A DNA stretch of 22,839 bases. It comes from a virus. The DNA lies in IMG/VR virus record IMGVR_UViG_3300030109_000748, positions 1-22,839 of that record, one strand, 5' to 3'. Made by a program: the position numbers and the translations under genes. The notes below the pieces were generated by a model, which was not told the DNA's origin, searched no databases, and worked only from the letters and a program-made list of their open reading frames with translations. Of the stretch, positions 7,964-22,839 are shown in pieces; the stretch's first letter is position 1; each line of letters starts with the position of its first letter.

Positions 7964-9065
7964 TTATATGTATCCTTGTATCTCTCATGTATGCTTTACT
8001 ATTTATATATTCGCTTCTTAATATTTGTAATTGTGATTTATATTCTCCCAAAGCCATCTGTGCAGCTTGTGGATCAGAACGTAGTACGTAAGTATGGTAC
8101 TTTGCTCTTGTAATTATTACATCTTTAAACCTATCGTTTAAATCCATGGTATCTCCATGTGCAGATAAGTCAGTATGTACTTTCCAATATTCGTATTCTA
8201 TAGTATATGTGTCTTTGTCAGGTACAGGATGTAAACCAAACTTTTTATCCTGTGTAGTATAAACTAACTCTGGTCTACCAAAATGTTCTTTTGAGTTTAG
8301 TAGGTCTGTTTCTAAAAATCTGTCAGCCCAGTTATCGTAAGTAATATACTTCAGTCTTTTTACAGGTAAGTCTTCAGATATTCTAATGTAGTCTACATCT
8401 AAGTTTGTAGTGGTAACAGTGTTGTTTACAGTGACCACTGTAGATTGTCCAGTTGCTGTAAACGTGGTATCTAGCACAGCACCTTCCCCAAAATCTGTAA
8501 CAGTCAACGTAGTGTTTAAATTTGTAGTATCTTCAGCTGCTGTACCCACTTGTACTTTCAATGCTGCACCGATGCTGTTCGAATCTAACACTCTAACTTG
8601 TATTCTGTAATCTCTATTCTTCACAGTAGACAGTGTCTGATGAGCTGCATAATCATTCAGTCTTAATCTACCATTTCCTGCAGAACTATAACTTGCACTA
8701 CCAGCACCAGCTATGGTTGTCCAACTGCTAATGTCAGAAGTAAACTCACCGTTTGTAGTTAATTCTCTTGGCACTAAACGAAAAGTATCATAGTCAATTT
8801 TTCTATATTCAGCATCACCTGTCTGTGGAGAGTTTGTAGTTGGTAGGTCGTACACTCTCTGTCCTACTTGCGTATCCTGTTTTGTAGATATGTACAAGTC
8901 AGGCACTTCTTGTAGAGTGCTGTACACTTCATGCATAGCTTTCAACACGAACTTCTTCACGGCTGTCTGTACACCTCTGCTGTTTGCAAACGTGGCAGAT
9001 GTCAACTCTGATTCATTCAGTTCGTTAAGTACGTTATTTACTAATGTTAGATAAGTAGTTGCCAT
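7956..9065 (-). CDS. Head-to-tail adaptor (tail tubular protein A, T7 gp11-like) with jelly-roll insertion
   Basis: The 369-residue protein has the helical N-terminus of a short-tail adaptor (TYLTLVNNVLNELNESEL, then VKKFVLKAMHEVYSTLQEVP with QRVYDLP at 70-75) and the expected C-terminus (FGLHPVPDKDTYTIEYEYWK at 276-295, then FKDVIITRAKYHTYVLRSDP). Together these match the gp11 fold that docks on the portal. Residues about 101-231 are extra: they start LTTNGEFTSDISSWTTIAG and alternate short beta strands up to LDVDYIRISEDLP, the pattern of a CBM4/9-type carbohydrate-binding jelly roll. The stop of the previous gene abuts this start as TAAATG. The 3' end overlaps the nozzle gene by 8 nt. Adaptor assignment is firm; the ligand of the inserted domain is unknown. 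Confidence 0.83.
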   Translation of the reverse strand: MATTYLTLVNNVLNELNESELTSATFANSRGVQTAVKKFVLKAMHEVYSTLQEVPDLYISTKQDTQVGQRVYDLPTTNSPQTGDAEYRKIDYDTFRLVPRELTTNGEFTSDISSWTTIAGAGSASYSSAGNGRLRLNDYAAHQTLSTVKNRDYRIQVRVLDSNSIGAALKVQVGTAAEDTTNLNTTLTVTDFGEGAVLDTTFTATGQSTVVTVNNTVTTTNLDVDYIRISEDLPVKRLKYITYDNWADRFLETDLLNSKEHFGRPELVYTTQDKKFGLHPVPDKDTYTIEYEYWKVHTDLSAHGDTMDLNDRFKDVIITRAKYHTYVLRSDPQAAQMALGEYKSQLQILRSEYINSKAYMRDTRIHINA

Positions 9066-16312: not shown

Positions 16313-16569
16313 TATTTTTTCTTATCTTCCTTTTTCATCTGATCAAAATTATTCTTCAAGTTGAGAAGCATTGCCAGCAAACTGGCCTTCCCCTGCAGTC
16401 GGTACACCTCCAACTCCGATTGTGCCGTTACCAGCCCCTGTAAGGTCTGAAGGTGAAGTCCCTGCAGGAGTTTGTTGAGGGCCTGCCATGCCTGTGGGTT
16501 GTTCACCACCGGGGACAGCTGCTTCAGCACCTCCTGATTGTTGTTGTTGTTCTGTTGGTTGTTGGGCAT
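16312..16569 (-). CDS. 85-aa protein nested out of frame in the portal 3' end
   Basis: This gene overlaps the last 221 nt of the portal gene in another frame and runs 37 nt past the portal stop. The N-terminus is a Gln/Asn run (PNNQQNNNNNQ); the remainder is a helical domain, WQALNKLLQGLHLQTLQGLV then SELEVYRLQGKASLLAMLLN, ending FDQMKKEDKKK. The VYRLQG-x-x-x-LL pattern is familiar from small phage proteins with helical hairpins encoded just after portals. It is credible because of a well-placed AAAGGA site 7 nt before its ATG, a TAATG junction with the next gene, and a protein-like helical composition. In the overlapped region the portal is Gln/Gly/Pro-rich and probably unstructured, which leaves room for overprinting. 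Confidence 0.75.
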   Translation of the reverse strand: MPNNQQNNNNNQEVLKQLSPVVNNPQAWQALNKLLQGLHLQTLQGLVTAQSELEVYRLQGKASLLAMLLNLKNNFDQMKKEDKKK

Positions 16570-18460
16570 TTTGCATTCCTTTCAGCATTTCTGCGTATAT
16601 TTGAGCTTGGTTAATATCATTGACTAAACTGTCTGGATCAATATCTTGTGAGATAGCTAGTTCTTTTATAAGATTAGGAATCTTAATAAACGGAGCTAAC
16701 ATTGGGTTTACCACTGTCTGTAGTAACATTGTCAGTCTTTGTGAACGTACTTCTTTCTGCATTACAGAAGACACACCTTTTGGTTTGATCTCTAAGTCTC
16801 CTACAATGTCAGGCTGTTCATCGTTAAACTGCATGTTCCATTGAAATAGTGCTTCTCCCAACGGTTTCAAAAGATGATCATCCATGTTTTTAATCACCGT
16901 TTTTATGGATAAGCCAGCCGAACCTAACAACATTGATAGTCCAGCTGCTGTTCTGCCTGTGCCACTAACGCCTGTCTGCCCATGCATAATACTGGGAATC
17001 CCAGTCTCTTCATCAGCCAACTGTCTAGCTTTATCATACATTTGTATGTTTTCACCAGCGGTATTAGGGAACTTAATACCATTCACTGCGGTTCCTGTAA
17101 CGCCAGACTGTCTTCTGAATATCTTACCCGGAAATATATCGTAGTTCTGTCCGGGAACTAATGATGTCTCATCAACATCAAATATTAAATTACCTGCAAG
17201 TGTTAAGTTATCAATAGCCATTCGTACATGACCATTCATTAACATCTGTGCATCTTCCATGTTCTCTGGTACTCCAATACCCCATAGTTGATAAGGGCTT
17301 ATTTCATATGGAAATACCTGATAGGGTATTCTTGTTGGTGTGAAAGGGTTAATTACAGCACGTAATACTTGACTTCCACAAATCCATGCATTTATTTGTA
17401 CTTTTCCTAGTGGGTCTACATCTCCTACATCTTTTCCAATCTGTTGAAGAAAGGATACGTCTACAGCACCCCAATACTCTAATACTTCATATCTTTCATT
17501 AGATGCTCTAGATAGATACTCATCATCTCTAATTAAACTCTCAAAATACTTATCTACGTAGTTTCCACCACCTGTCAACACAGTTCTAATGGCATCAGGG
17601 TCGAACATTGGCATATCCATAAGATTACGAAGCTGTTCTCTGTTCATCCTGTGTCTTTGTATTACGAAATCTGCATCGTTTATGTTCGTAGCTATAGGAT
17701 CAGGGTATAAATCCCAACAAGATACAGACTCTATCTTAGGTACATCTCTATAATATGGAGAGTACATTCTGCTTCCTTGATCGTCTTTTTGCCATTTATG
17801 CACTGTTTTTGTATGTGTAAACGGGCCTTTTACAATACCTGTGCCTAGTAATACAGACTCAAATATTGAGTTTCGTAAGGTGCTTACAGCGTTGGATTCT
17901 GTCAGTTGATCTAATATAACCTTCTCCATACGCATGGCAGCCTCTTGTGCAGGAGATATCTGTGGTTCTCCCATCAAGGCAGGCCCTTCTGCTACAGGTG
18001 CACCTTCGTATTTATCTTTCAGACCACCTAAGTAGTCTTTTTCTGTAGCTTGAGTAGCTCCGGGTGGCATTTCTCTGCCATCACCTTCAAACCCATAGGG
18101 ACTTTTCATTTCATCAATTGGTGTTTTCAAATGTGCAAATTCAGCAATACCTTCAGGTACAGGTGTAGATTCCACAGTGAGTGGAAACTTCTTATTTGCA
18201 AATAAGATATCTACTATCTGTCCGTAGGCAGCCAACACTTTAGTTTTGGTTATTTTTATAAATACTTTAGACTTCTCAGTGTTTGTGTACTGTGTACTAG
18301 AATCATAAACACCTCTGAAGTTCTTATAAGCCTTTAACCATCGTTCTTCATGCACCAATCGACCATTTTCAGCTTCTTGAAAATAGCCGTTTATTAAACC
18401 TACAAGTCCCGGAGCTTGACTATCGTCAAGTTCTGTAGATATGTCTACAGGATCACTCAT
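16349..18460 (-). CDS. Portal protein
   Basis: The 703-residue protein is the head-tail connector that forms the dodecameric DNA channel. It opens with a helical clip/wing region (GLINGYFQEAENGRLVHEER, then WLKAYKNFRGVYDSS) and has portal-like motifs such as KVFIKITKTKVLAAYGQIVD (about 65-84), SCWDLYPDPIATNINDADFV and FPYEISPYQLWGIGVPENME, followed by a helical crown with RTAAGLSMLLGSAG. The last 75 or so residues are Gln/Gly/Pro/Ala-rich and overlap an 85-aa gene in another frame. Its position after the terminase and two intervening genes is usual. The ATG follows the previous stop by 3 nt with a GAGGG site upstream. Length is at the large end for short-tailed phages because of the disordered tail. 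Confidence 0.9.
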   Translation of the reverse strand: MSDPVDISTELDDSQAPGLVGLINGYFQEAENGRLVHEERWLKAYKNFRGVYDSSTQYTNTEKSKVFIKITKTKVLAAYGQIVDILFANKKFPLTVESTPVPEGIAEFAHLKTPIDEMKSPYGFEGDGREMPPGATQATEKDYLGGLKDKYEGAPVAEGPALMGEPQISPAQEAAMRMEKVILDQLTESNAVSTLRNSIFESVLLGTGIVKGPFTHTKTVHKWQKDDQGSRMYSPYYRDVPKIESVSCWDLYPDPIATNINDADFVIQRHRMNREQLRNLMDMPMFDPDAIRTVLTGGGNYVDKYFESLIRDDEYLSRASNERYEVLEYWGAVDVSFLQQIGKDVGDVDPLGKVQINAWICGSQVLRAVINPFTPTRIPYQVFPYEISPYQLWGIGVPENMEDAQMLMNGHVRMAIDNLTLAGNLIFDVDETSLVPGQNYDIFPGKIFRRQSGVTGTAVNGIKFPNTAGENIQMYDKARQLADEETGIPSIMHGQTGVSGTGRTAAGLSMLLGSAGLSIKTVIKNMDDHLLKPLGEALFQWNMQFNDEQPDIVGDLEIKPKGVSSVMQKEVRSQRLTMLLQTVVNPMLAPFIKIPNLIKELAISQDIDPDSLVNDINQAQIYAEMLKGMQNAQQPTEQQQQSGGAEAAVPGGEQPTGMAGPQQTPAGTSPSDLTGAGNGTIGVGGVPTAGEGQFAGNASQLEE
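16577..16582 (-). promoter_or_regulatory. Ribosome-binding site inside the portal gene
   Basis: AAAGGA on the minus strand, 7 nt before the ATG at 16569, lies within portal coding sequence. It has the same form as the sites of scaffold, decoration and coiled-coil genes, and is the main evidence that the nested 85-aa frame is translated. Confidence 0.7.
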
Positions 18461-18463
18461 CTA

Positions 18464-18706
18464 TTAGCCCTCTGTACCTTGATAGCCTTGCTTTTGCATC
18501 TGTCCCATTATATAACCTGCTTGACCCATATGTCTATTTCCAGCGGGTTTTGGTACAGCCACATTGTAGGAATTTAGGTCTGTAGAGCCTAGTAGCATCT
18601 GGTCTAAACCTTCTCTATATAGAGAACCTTCGCTAGCCTCATTCATTACACCTTGTTTGGACATTTGTCCCATGATGTAACCTTTATCGTAAGTTCCTTT
18701 TGGCAT
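18464..18706 (-). CDS. 80-aa protein with a duplicated GYIMGQM-x-KQG motif
   Basis: The protein contains GYIMGQMSKQG at residues 9-19 and GYIMGQMQKQG at 64-74, separated by a charged spacer. The remaining residues show no recognisable domain. The two motifs differ by one amino acid yet by five synonymous codon changes, so both copies are held constant by selection. A strong AAGGAGGT site precedes the ATG. It lies between the recombinase-like gene and the portal, 3 nt before the latter. The duplicated short motif may bind a symmetric partner such as a portal or terminase ring, but I know no family and offer no function. Confidence 0.75.
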   Translation of the reverse strand: MPKGTYDKGYIMGQMSKQGVMNEASEGSLYREGLDQMLLGSTDLNSYNVAVPKPAGNRHMGQAGYIMGQMQKQGYQGTEG

Positions 18707-18734: not shown

Positions 18735-20648
18735 TTATGATCCACCTCTAATACCACCGAATGGTACTAATTTCTTTAATTGTTCCTCTAAAGGAACTGT
18801 TTCCTCACCTTTTCTTTTAAATAAAGTAATTGGCAAAGGGCTGTATGTTTCTTCTAATATTCTAGCTGCTTTTCTTTCTTCTCCAGTGTCTATTCCTATT
18901 GTTTCTGTCATTCTATTTAATAGATTTTTTTCATCTTCTTCTAATTCATATGCTTCAACAGGAGTAGTGGCTACTTCAGTTACAGCGGCAGCGGTTATTC
19001 CTGCACCAGCTATTCCTAAACCTTTTGCTATAGGTTTTTTAAGAGGACCTGATTTTTTAATACCTTCTTTAGCTTTTTTTAATATTTTACTAAAAGCAGA
19101 TTGCTGTTCTTCAATAGGGAGCTGTTTTATATTTTCAATATCTTGGTTTTTAATATTATATTTATTAATAATAGTGTTCATACTATCAGAATTAAAATTT
19201 ATAGCTTTTTTAGGAGTTTCTTCTAGTCCAACCTGTCTTGCTTGTCTTGTTTCTTGTGCTTTTAATAAGCTAGTTTCTTTTTTTGATTCAAATTCTGCTA
19301 CTTGAGCTTCTTGACCTGCTATATAAGTTTTTTGTTGAGCATCTCTTCTTTCTTTTAATCTAAGCAACTCTTCAGGAGTCATGTCTCTGCTATTTCTAGC
19401 ACCGGTGTCTTCTAAACTATCTAGTTCTATAACTCGTGTGTCATTAGCTATTTTTACACCTGAGTTTCTTGCTATATCATTTATATCTTCTGTATTTAAA
19501 ATGTCCGCTATTAAATTTTCATATTTACGTAATGCAGATAATACTTTTTCGTCAGCCCCTACTCCCTCAATATTACTTATATAATGCTTAGCAGATGTTA
19601 AAGACAAAGTTTGAACAAATTCAACATCAGACCCATGACCAAGTAATTTAACCGCAATTTCAGGGTTGTTTATAGAGGGGTGCATAGCAATTGTACTAGC
19701 AGCTATTTTTCTAAGGCCAGAATAACCAACTATTGGTTTGCCCATTATTATTTCAAATTCTTTCATTTTAGGAGCAAAATGATCTTTTATAGAACTGGAT
19801 AATTTAGCTGTAGTTATATTTTCAAATAGCTTACTTCTACCTTTATTAACAGCATCATTGTATTCTAAATCAACCATATTACTTAAAAATTCAGTAAGTT
19901 TATAGTTTGGAAAGTTTTTTTGTCCTCTTCCTTTTTTGTTAGGCAACATAATACTAAACCCACCATCAGAGTTTTTATACAATAAAGGCCTTGTTACTGT
20001 GCCTGATTTTGCACCTTTTTCTGTAATGTGTATGTCTGTTAAATCTGCTCCTCTGTTTGGAAGTATAGCAGATAATAAAAAAGATTTAGCGTATGCAGGC
20101 CCATATTTAGGATTAGCAGCTATTTCTTGAGCAGCCTCAATTATTTTAGGCCATACTACCTCTGGTTTTGGAACTTTTATAAATTTTGCTGTACCTCTAG
20201 CCTGTGGTGCTTTTATTATTCTTTTAGCATATTCTATTTTTTTGTTGCCAATTTTTTTTCCTTTAGCAAAATTAAAAACAATACCATCTAAGGCTTGAGT
20301 TTTTACTACTTTTCCTTCTGAAAAACCTCTATTCTGTAAATCAACTTCAGTGTCAAAATCAGTCATAAAATTTTTATCTAACTCATTTTTAAAACTTACT
20401 AAGGTTGATCTAAAAGTTTTTGCAGAAGTAGGTTCAGCGTCAGGTAATAATTCATTAAATTGTTTAACAACAGCGTCTTCTAAATCAGCATCAGAAAAAT
20501 TAATACCTTTTTGCTTAGCCTCCATTATAAAAGCATCTCTGTAAGTAAGAGTGTTGTTGCCTATTTTTTTTATAAAGTAATCGTCTGAAGGAACACCTTT
20601 AAATCCTTCAGGAAATAAAATATCTACTATTTGTTTGTTTTTTGCCAT
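18735..20648 (-). CDS. Tyrosine-recombinase-like protein with long C-terminal extension, in the packaging module
   Basis: The 637-residue protein has three parts. Residues about 1-175 resemble an N-terminal DNA-binding region. Residues 180-360 look like a tyrosine recombinase catalytic domain: box I in SFLLSAILPNRGADLTDI with Arg199, a possible catalytic Lys at 238-239 in PNKKGRGQ, box II in YSGLRKIAAS with Arg313, LLGHGS with His338, and Tyr356 in AKHYISN. Spacings Arg199-Arg313 (114) and Arg313-His338 (25) fit the family. Departures: the usual His of H-x-L-R is Ser310, and Tyr356 is 18 residues after His338 instead of about 9. Residues 420-475 are a charged coiled coil, and 538-568 a Gly/Ala/Val stretch (AKGLGIAGAGITAAAVTEVA) typical of large phage virion proteins. 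It follows the terminase stop by 3 nt, with a weak ribosome-binding site. It may be a packaged, co-injected recombinase or a degenerate structural derivative. Confidence 0.75.
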   Translation of the reverse strand: MAKNKQIVDILFPEGFKGVPSDDYFIKKIGNNTLTYRDAFIMEAKQKGINFSDADLEDAVVKQFNELLPDAEPTSAKTFRSTLVSFKNELDKNFMTDFDTEVDLQNRGFSEGKVVKTQALDGIVFNFAKGKKIGNKKIEYAKRIIKAPQARGTAKFIKVPKPEVVWPKIIEAAQEIAANPKYGPAYAKSFLLSAILPNRGADLTDIHITEKGAKSGTVTRPLLYKNSDGGFSIMLPNKKGRGQKNFPNYKLTEFLSNMVDLEYNDAVNKGRSKLFENITTAKLSSSIKDHFAPKMKEFEIIMGKPIVGYSGLRKIAASTIAMHPSINNPEIAVKLLGHGSDVEFVQTLSLTSAKHYISNIEGVGADEKVLSALRKYENLIADILNTEDINDIARNSGVKIANDTRVIELDSLEDTGARNSRDMTPEELLRLKERRDAQQKTYIAGQEAQVAEFESKKETSLLKAQETRQARQVGLEETPKKAINFNSDSMNTIINKYNIKNQDIENIKQLPIEEQQSAFSKILKKAKEGIKKSGPLKKPIAKGLGIAGAGITAAAVTEVATTPVEAYELEEDEKNLLNRMTETIGIDTGEERKAARILEETYSPLPITLFKRKGEETVPLEEQLKKLVPFGGIRGGS

Positions 20649-20651
20649 CTA

Positions 20652-22337
20652 TTAATATCCAAATACTTGATCTTGTGGTTCATACTGCTGTGTCTGTTTT
20701 GTCATCCTATGTGGAGAATGCACATTCATCAGAGTCCTACTCATCATCATATACCTCAACGCATCGTAAGCATGGTCTTCAGCTTTCGTATCCACATCTT
20801 CAGGATTGGTTTTAGATATGGGTAGTGTAGGTAGAGTCCTGATTGTATTGTTGCACGTAGAAAAAAAGCGAACCCTAGCATTACCGTGGTCGTCACAGGC
20901 TAATCTCCTGTGTACTTCTATCTTTCCTGCAATTCTGTTCCTGTCCGCTGGTGTCCATCGTGCTCCTCTCCTTACCATAGTCTCTGCAATAGAAGGCCCT
21001 AAGCCTGTTCTGTTCCAACAGGAAGAATCCAGCGTTGTTTGCTGCATCGGTGGGTCTTCTCTTTCCATTTGTACTATCAAATCTCCTAACCTCTCTCCTG
21101 TATATCCTTTTACGTATAATTCTCTGTATATCCATATGTTATTGTCCCAATCTATGGCTCCCCATAAGATACAAGACGGTGAAGAATAGCCATAATCGCC
21201 TGATCTTATCCTTGTCCAGCCCGATGGCACCTCAAAAGGCTCTACAACGTGTGTCTCACGACTAAATTCAGTAAAAGCAGAGCCATCTGCTACGTCCCAG
21301 TCACCTTCTAACAACCTTTTTCTCTCTATTTCCGGTAGAGACATCAACATCGCCTCATATTGACCGTCTTCAAACAGATATGGGTTGTCTGTCAACCTTG
21401 CAGGCACGAATTTACGTAAAAATAACGGTTCATCGGCCTTTGGGTGGTTCATTGGGTACTTCAAAACCTTACCAGTGTCAAAATCCCTAGCCCAAAATGG
21501 ACTATCTGGTGGATTAGGGTCTAAATACATCTTTTTTACCCACCAACCTCCTACTCCTCCGGGGTTTGCTGTACATCTCATGTACATTCCTAGTTCTGGA
21601 TCAGTAGTTCTAAGTCTAGAACGTAGGTAATTCCACACGTATGGTGTGGGGTAGTTCGTAATCTCGTCTATTCCTATCCAATTGAACGCTTGTCCTTGGT
21701 ATCTAGTCACATCTCGGTCATCATCTACGTATGAAAACCATACTCTAGCACCTGATGGGAACTGCCAGATGGACTTTGCCTCTTTAAATACAGCTCCGGG
21801 GAACGCTTTTGGATAGAGTTGCTTGCTTTTGTCTATCAATTCGGTCAATTCAGCTAGTGTTCTTCTCAACAGCAACCCTCTATGGTTGGGATTTGATGCA
21901 TCTCGCAGTACATCTGCTAGTAATGCATAGGATTTTCCCCCTCCTGCTGCTCCTCCGTATAAGACATCTCTTTCAGGTGACTCAAGGAATGTAGTTTGAG
22001 GGCCTTCGTTGGCTCTGAATACTACATCGTGGTGCTGTAAATGCTCACGTACAGCTTGAGGCACCTTCTTTAAGTCCTCGTCAGTGATTACACTTACGGA
22101 CTTCTGTCTTCCCTTTAGAGCATTGTCCACTTTGACAGCAGCCTGTTGTGCCTCTTTAGATTTTCTTCTGGCATTCTTAGCTTGCTTCGTCAATCTTTCA
22201 GCTCTTCGTTTCTTTTCGGAAAGCTGTCTTTGAGTGGCCAATCTGGCCTTCATCTTCATCGACCAGTTATAACTCGTTTTTGGTTCTCCCTCTTTTTTGG
22301 GAGGTCTACCTCTTTTTGGTTTCTGTTCTTCTGTCAT
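20652..22337 (-). CDS. terL: Terminase large subunit (packaging ATPase-nuclease)
   Basis: The 561-residue protein powers DNA packaging into the procapsid and cuts the genome. ATPase motifs are clear: Walker A GGAAGGGKS at 128-136 (Lys135), Walker B WIGIDE at 220-225 (Asp224, Glu225) and the coupling motif TANPGG at 256-261. The RNase H-like nuclease follows: Asp381 in SGDYGYSSPS, Asp437 in TTLDSSCW, and Asp521/Asp525 in KAEDHAYDALRYMM. The first 100 or so residues are an unusual basic extension with an AT-hook-like KRGRPPKK at 8-15 and a Lys/Arg-rich helix (about 28-65). The start overlaps the stop of the 75-aa upstream gene (ATGA). Assignment is very secure. Confidence 0.97.
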   Translation of the reverse strand: MTEEQKPKRGRPPKKEGEPKTSYNWSMKMKARLATQRQLSEKKRRAERLTKQAKNARRKSKEAQQAAVKVDNALKGRQKSVSVITDEDLKKVPQAVREHLQHHDVVFRANEGPQTTFLESPERDVLYGGAAGGGKSYALLADVLRDASNPNHRGLLLRRTLAELTELIDKSKQLYPKAFPGAVFKEAKSIWQFPSGARVWFSYVDDDRDVTRYQGQAFNWIGIDEITNYPTPYVWNYLRSRLRTTDPELGMYMRCTANPGGVGGWWVKKMYLDPNPPDSPFWARDFDTGKVLKYPMNHPKADEPLFLRKFVPARLTDNPYLFEDGQYEAMLMSLPEIERKRLLEGDWDVADGSAFTEFSRETHVVEPFEVPSGWTRIRSGDYGYSSPSCILWGAIDWDNNIWIYRELYVKGYTGERLGDLIVQMEREDPPMQQTTLDSSCWNRTGLGPSIAETMVRRGARWTPADRNRIAGKIEVHRRLACDDHGNARVRFFSTCNNTIRTLPTLPISKTNPEDVDTKAEDHAYDALRYMMMSRTLMNVHSPHRMTKQTQQYEPQDQVFGY

Positions 22338-22561
22338 CTATCTAAATGTACACCTATTTTCATTCGCTTTGTAAGACCGGGGTTTGATATTCTTCTACCG
22401 GATGCTGTGCTTAACCACCTTGCAGCTTTTGCAGGCCCACAGCTGTTTGCGAATGTAAACGCCTTTTCTAATAATTCTAATTCCTTATCTACAGGAATAT
22501 ATTCTTTTCCGTCCTCTGATAGTTCATACCCAAATGGTATGGTTGATGTTGTTCTTCTCAA
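22334..22561 (-). CDS. Helix-turn-helix-like small protein in the small-terminase position
   Basis: The 75-residue protein starts RRTTSTIPFGYELSEDGKEY and continues with IPVDKELELLEKAFTFANSC, then GPAKAARWLSTASGRRISNP. The FGY-x-L...I-P...A-x-W-L...I-S...G-L pattern resembles the short resolvase-associated recombinase domain and its helix-turn-helix. I recall similar stand-alone proteins directly upstream of the large terminase in marine phages. Position suggests a DNA-recognition role in packaging (TerS-like), but the sequence is shorter than typical TerS and this is inference. It starts at TTG (22559-22561), overlapping the preceding TGA as TTGA, with an AAGGTGA site 5-8 nt upstream. It ends as ATGA into terL. 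Confidence 0.7.
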   Translation of the reverse strand: MRRTTSTIPFGYELSEDGKEYIPVDKELELLEKAFTFANSCGPAKAARWLSTASGRRISNPGLTKRMKIGVHLDR

Positions 22562-22839
22562 TTGTCACCTTTTCTTAACTGACTTATATATTTAGATAAA
22601 CCTTTAGAAAATGTTGTTGCTTCTGCAGGTGTATTAAATTCTATAAAATCTTTTTTTCTTAAAGCTATTTTTCTTGCTTCTTCACGAGAATATTTTATTA
22701 ATTCACCACCTACCATTCTAATAGTTGGGTATAAAATTTCTCTACCCTCTCCCACTCCCGATGATGCCGTTCTAATACTTTCTCTTGCAACAGTAGTTGG
22801 TGTATTAGGATTTAATGCTCTTTTCAACCATGCTGGCCT
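22558..22839 (-). CDS. Partial protein with GEGREILYPTIR module, N-terminus beyond window
   Basis: The reading frame is open to the right edge. It reads RPAWLKRALNPNTPTTVARE and then GVGEGREILYPTIRM, SREEARKIALRKKDFIEFNT and ATTFSKGLSKYISQLRKGDN at the C-terminus. The internal TTG at 22827 is not needed as a start. The EGREILYPT...A...F-x-T-x-x-E-A-x-x-F-S module is one I have seen at the C-termini of phage and prophage structural or internal proteins (forms like EGREVLIPT...E-A...Y-A-E). It may be a small adapter domain of a longer protein. The upstream part cannot be seen. It is the first gene of the operon segment here and its stop overlaps the TTG of the next. Confidence 0.65.
   Translation of the reverse strand, partial: RPAWLKRALNPNTPTTVARESIRTASSGVGEGREILYPTIRMVGGELIKYSREEARKIALRKKDFIEFNTPAEATTFSKGLSKYISQLRKGDN

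Follow-up and report, generated by a model that had tools for sequence, protein, structure and literature searches.

Can a site-specific recombinase belong to the packaging genes of a tailed phage, and if so, what would it do there? The question is raised by a 22,839-bp virus record (the whole stretch analysed, referred to here as the window), in which all major genes lie on the minus strand. A preliminary description had placed a tyrosine-recombinase-like domain between the genes for the terminase large subunit (TerL) and the portal. We call the gene position in this terL-portal gap the slot, and the product of the 637-aa open reading frame found there, or of its counterparts in other phages, the slot protein. 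The reading frame is real (18735-20648, minus strand), and residues 180-360, to which the domain had been assigned, do correspond to 19569-20111. Its ATG lies 3 nt past the stop codon of terL (20652-22337, minus strand), also as described. The encoded TerL is of the HMO-2011 type (PHROG 979, E 1.8e-58), with 47-53% identity to the TerL proteins of HMO-2011, CRP phages and pelagiphages. The order terminase, recombinase, portal is likewise correct, but the recombinase and portal genes are not immediate neighbours: an 80-aa gene (18464-18706, minus strand) with a strong Shine-Dalgarno sequence (AAGGAGGT) intervenes before the portal/head-tail adaptor gene (16349-18460, minus strand; PF23899 SU10 portal, E 9.9e-22; PHROG 332, E 2.6e-77). 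Upstream of terL, a 75-aa gene resembling HMO-2011 gp53 (22334-22561, minus strand) marks the start of a terL block that is about 99% identical in phages carrying other alleles of the slot.

The slot protein can be divided into an N-terminal region (residues 1-150), a tyrosine recombinase catalytic domain (about 150-370) and a C-terminal tail (about 400-637). Single-sequence searches with the 637-aa protein against Pfam, PHROGs, the PDB and 50,697 phage records returned nothing relevant. The way in was the neighbouring gene: IMG/VR contains at least 600 relatives of the window TerL, from which 80 loci were kept, and downstream of terL most of these have a large open reading frame, then a gene of about 80 aa, then the portal. 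The slot proteins are linked to each other by iterated profiles, and direct matches to Pfam Phage_integrase and the PHROG 1 integrase were obtained with other slot alleles. Profile comparison gave no link between family F4 (L076, L079, L080) and the remaining slot families, and its assignment is tentative. When a profile of the full-length alignment was run against PDB sequences, no relevant match appeared. Structure prediction with AlphaFold (AF2) was uninformative from the single sequence (pLDDT 38); the homologue alignment was used instead and produced a model with a pLDDT of 78. Foldseek matched this model to XerH and Cre in the PDB (probability 1.00, E 1.2e-3 to 4e-3), and all PDB matches at ranks 1-36 are tyrosine recombinases or type IB topoisomerases (XerH, Cre, Tn1549 Int, XerA, TelA, Flp, topoIB). 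In a viral structure library the matches were integrases and a nudivirus VLF-1. The predicted fold is thus that of the XerD/lambda Int/Cre class, and an unrelated fold, which would have spoken against the original proposal, was not seen.

The active site points the same way. NRGADL (R199), SGLRK (R313) and LLGHGS (H338) were found at the residues named in the preliminary description, which had omitted the nucleophile, Y356. The four codons lie on the minus strand at 20052-20054 (Arg199, box I), 19710-19712 (Arg313, box II), 19635-19637 (His338) and 19581-19583 (Tyr356). Among 21 divergent slot homologues, 15-38% identical to the query, these four are the sole fully invariant columns, and their conservation therefore exceeds what chance would produce in sequences of this kind. 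A larger alignment of 66 sequences, made up of the query and loci retrieved with a pattern that covers only the surroundings of R313, keeps R199, H338 and Y356 in 65 of 65 aligned rows, R313 being the anchor of that pattern; counted over all four catalytic positions, conservation is 65/65 or 66/66. The Arg/Arg/His signature thus holds in homologues, with the tyrosine added to it. From the conserved residues and the predicted fold together, we regard it as settled that the 637-aa protein carries a tyrosine recombinase domain, in likeness to XerH, Cre, lambda Int and Tn1549 Int. It differs from these in having about 280 residues after the catalytic tyrosine, the modular tail included, in escaping detection by Pfam and PHROGs, in being a gene of a packaging operon, and in its box II. 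The histidine of the superfamily's HxxR motif, three residues before Arg313, is Ser310 in the window and Thr in 65 of the 66 aligned rows, so that on this point the window protein departs from the superfamily pattern; some slot alleles of other recombinase families retain HSLRH. This histidine is replaceable in active tyrosine recombinases, and Ser or Thr in its place therefore does not exclude membership. For the beta-hairpin lysine, a Lys-rich GRK/KKGRGQK segment aligns only loosely. Within alleles, purifying selection acts on the catalytic part (dN/dS 0.05-0.45). The enzyme is probably catalytically competent, which, with Ser or Thr for the box II histidine in the window subfamily, is an inference. 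A second recombinase family in the slot (L004, L012, L016, L020, L025, L038) keeps both arginines and the tyrosine and mostly has Arg for the histidine of the LGH box; L016 (KSGRADVRVIEGYM) exemplifies this unusual active-site variant.

How constant is the position of the gene? A scan seeded by the recombinase sequence alone yielded 77 loci, 71 newly fetched and six from the earlier set, some of the 71 having been re-cut from contigs already in that set. All 77 adjoin terL and/or portal. In each of the 71, TerL lies upstream and/or the portal downstream; both are present in 54, and in the others a contig end truncates the locus. The recombinase gene is at most 5 nt away from terL or overlaps it. 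The gene is fixed in the packaging/head module throughout the clade, and its unusual placement in this operon is strongly supported. Searches of open-access literature, a source of incomplete coverage, gave no title or abstract that describes a recombinase between terminase and portal, and we consider the packaging-operon context to be new. The carriers are uncultured phages, mostly of marine type. No confirmed relative of either TerL or the recombinase was found among 84,980 genomes of bacteria and archaea, in which the hosts of these phages may be unsampled, and phage isolates likewise yielded no such recombinase.

These phages are of the HMO-2011 type, three long slot contigs sharing helicase, DNAP, RNR, endonuclease, coat, portal and TerL with HMO-2011. 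The cultured relatives examined have no slot recombinase gene. An ordinary int occurs at another position in some of them: HMO-2011 has one beside its primase, and the majority of subgroup I and subgroup III phages have int at that place, with none reported in subgroups IV-X (PMC9038755). HMO-2011 gp09 and the CRP-3 integrase are tyrosine recombinases of the same phage group and, like the slot proteins, occur at about one per genome. They differ in lying upstream of primase, in their ordinary length of 292 aa and in their ready recognition (PF00589 at 72 bits), and by profile they are not detectably related to the slot proteins. Conversely, the long slot-bearing contigs that were checked have one slot recombinase each and no second integrase or other Phage_integrase match. 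The finding that slot recombinase and canonical int never occur in one genome among those checked is one reason to consider that the slot gene is an ordinary lysogeny integrase moved to the terL-portal gap, where it would be expressed after entry from a weak promoter of its own, integrate the phage at a host site and change its att site by allele swaps. CRP-3, an HMO-2011-type relative, does integrate into its host genome (PMC9038755). Against such a relocation stand the invariable location in the late operon, at most 5 nt from terL or overlapping it, and the failure to find a prophage of this kind in the 84,980 genomes; an HTH_3 repressor was not found above cut-off in eight slot contigs either, a weak point, since HMO-2011 also lacks one.

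The same gap holds unrelated genes in related phages (an HNH endonuclease, PhoH/GDSL, an FAD-oxidoreductase-like protein and small open reading frames), so that position alone may reflect a permissive insertion site. Two of these occupants are annotated as hypothetical: the HNH-endonuclease-like protein of a relative from Manatee Spring (L177, MW202701.1, 5586-6245) and an 849-aa FAD-dependent oxidoreductase-like protein with other domains fused to it in Rhizobium phage RHph_N3_19 (L085, 3935-6484). The recombinase could then be a passenger that exploits the gap, as the HNH endonuclease may do in the relative, and that moves itself. Within the clade, however, it is not sporadic: nearly all slot open reading frames of about 490 aa or more are recombinases, and the only slots that lack one belong to a distinct TerL branch of about 64% identity. 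In that branch, six loci (L048, L049, L052, L056, L057, L066) have short slot proteins of 202-355 aa with diverse N-termini and a near-constant C-terminal KPYAxGGKVY..RKPK tail.

The manner in which the gene is exchanged bears on both proposals. The window and two other loci, L003 and L004, have TerL proteins that are 100% identical and terL DNA that is 98.6-98.8% identical, and homology ends within 9 nt of the slot ATG. It resumes at the slot stop codon, and the DNA downstream of it is 93% and 81% identical; BLAST cannot align the slot proteins themselves. Recombinase domains are often unrelated by BLAST in pairs whose TerL proteins are at least 88% identical. Phages with about 99% identical terL DNA (98.6-98.9%) thus exchange the entire coding sequence of the recombinase, from ATG to stop, and the catalytic residues are kept each time, apart from the LGH histidine in the second family. 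The breaks in identity exactly at the ends of the gene would suit a passenger in an insertion-permissive gap; the junctions, however, show no flanking repeats and no target-site signature, and the gene is always exchanged for another recombinase, which makes a self-spreading element improbable. The 99% identical block also stops abruptly at its other end, at 22561-22569 in the window, at the start of the 75-aa gene, so that both of its flanks are exchanged between phages.

Within the slot protein, residues 401-637 (18738-19448, minus strand; about 240 aa) form a separate module, and similar tails are common to different recombinase families. L016 and L017, for example, have 100% identical TerL proteins and tails that are 60% identical, attached to recombinases of different families; L022/L024 and the window/L024 are further pairs of this kind. 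The last roughly 100 residues of the window tail are common to L022 and to L024, the recombinase domain of L024 being of a different family. Two scans for tails fused to non-recombinase proteins gave only 2 and 8 loci, mostly slot contigs already known. A role of the tail as an ejection or membrane domain was considered and set aside, because its hydrophobic stretch is no stronger than those of the portal or the amidase in the window. The tail of the L035 slot protein (8058-9047) has a lone weak PHROG match to a pilot protein for DNA ejection (E 0.002), which is insufficient as evidence for such a role. A tail of about 240 aa is not a feature of known integrases, and this too speaks against a relocated one.

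If the enzyme is active, where is its site? The preliminary description had found no tRNA or att-like sequence beside the gene; indeed there is no tRNA in the window, and T-arm-like sequence occurs there no more often than expected by chance. An attachment site adjoining the gene, the positional feature of an integrase in a lysogeny module, is absent on each of the counts considered (tRNA, T-arm match, exchange of coding sequence only); an att site may lie elsewhere. In temperate phages the integrase module is often a mosaic, which would fit the swapping of alleles. Yet here the coding sequence alone is exchanged, so no adjacent attP travels along with it. As the upstream flank remains about 99% identical, a recognition site that varied together with the enzyme would have to be either within the coding sequence or at some other place in the phage genome. 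Neither lox-like nor dif-like repeats were found in the window's slot gene, its flanks or the rest of the window, and no lox-like site in or beside the slot is consistent across alleles. One candidate from other contigs, a 12-7-12 bp palindrome (AAAAGTTAAGTA/CATTATA/TACTTAACTTTT) at 14467-14505 of L161, which equals 54467-54505 of contig G001, and with the same core in L182, was not retained as a recombination site: it is AT-rich, intergenic and followed by T-runs, and looks more like a terminator. It is probably a bidirectional terminator and possibly a recombination site.

Nor do sequence signals set the gene apart, as no convincing promoter or terminator separates it from the late operon, again contrary to what a relocated integrase would lead one to expect. 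In the window the slot start has no Shine-Dalgarno sequence and the following gene has one of eight bases, which suggests, from these signals, that translation of the recombinase is coupled to that of terL. From this coupling and the place of the gene we infer late, low-level synthesis. A displaced lysogeny integrase is the main rival explanation and a live one, although we think it less likely than not.

A gene adjoining terL and probably translated with it, whose best fold matches are XerH and Cre, might also be a late-acting resolvase that resolves concatemers, multimers or replicative intermediates in the manner of Xer or Cre so that terminase can package the DNA. A role of this type was proposed for gp143 of phiCbK, likewise a tyrosine recombinase, from a phage that is not known to have a temperate life cycle, although gp143 has only 208 aa, consists of the catalytic core alone and is discussed with replication genes (PMC3556154). 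From a housekeeping enzyme, however, one would not expect divergence to the point of being unrecognisable among phages with 99% identical terL; no dif- or lox-like site lies in the window or near the slot, and the cultured relatives package their DNA without a slot gene. We consider this version doubtful; its probability overlaps with that of the explanation preferred below, of which it is a sub-case. P1 Cre circularises terminally redundant genomes. It is among the best fold matches of the slot protein, but it is encoded outside the packaging operon and has a lox site; no counterpart of lox was found for the slot protein. One further member of the fold suggests a protelomerase, making the hairpin ends of a linear plasmid prophage: the length of 637 aa is similar to that of the N15 and phiKO2 protelomerases, and TelA is among the structural matches. 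TelA appears only at rank 16, though, below XerH and Cre, a search of the window and three long contigs gave no long telomere-type palindrome, and the module order in contig G013 suggests a circular map; a telomere resolvase is hardly credible.

The explanation that we rank first, and hold to be the probable one, is a catalytically competent late-operon recombinase of an HMO-2011-type clade, whose substrate would be the phage chromosome at about the time of packaging or entry. It would stand in for the ordinary integrase encoded next to the replication genes of some relatives, and would be translated at a low level late in infection through its coupling to terL. Its N-terminal and catalytic domains would recombine the phage chromosome at a cognate site, either at packaging, where concatemers or multimers would be resolved or trimmed, or after entry, where an enzyme carried in with the DNA by way of the tail domain would circularise or integrate the genome. 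That no other integrase is present suggests that the slot recombinase has taken over the integrase role or has another role on the phage chromosome. The fast exchange of its versions suggests that the DNA target, or what must be avoided, varies among near-identical phages, and the constant place of ever-changing versions suggests work at packaging or DNA entry rather than that of an ordinary lysogeny gene. Three versions can thus be set side by side: an enzyme carried in and acting on entry, one acting at packaging, and an ordinary integrase that has been relocated. The first of these goes furthest and is offered tentatively: a tailed phage would package a tyrosine recombinase in its particle, the tail domain loading it with the DNA, so that it acts on the incoming genome by circularisation or immediate integration, while whole-gene cassettes are swapped to change the target.

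For a recombinase tied to capsid and genome packaging, the closest functional parallel is VLF-1 of baculoviruses and nudiviruses, the nudivirus protein being itself among the structural matches. Baculovirus VLF-1 is needed for capsids and packaging, and its tyrosine is required for infectious virus (PMC3649998). Fixation in the packaging/head module is a feature that the slot gene shares with a VLF-1-like role; VLF-1 differs in belonging to insect viruses and in being an experimentally demonstrated virion component. Among marine phages, those of the HMO-2011 type are some of the most abundant, and several of their subgroups have been called obligately lytic, with no lysogeny gene recognised (PMC9038755). 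Members of this type do carry a recombinase, one that is invisible to standard libraries. Should it act at packaging, or enter the cell together with the DNA, phages would have a counterpart of their own to baculovirus VLF-1, whose type of role is reported to be unique to baculo-like viruses (PMC11654684). The natural library of swapped recombinases in this slot may also supply new DNA-recombination specificities.
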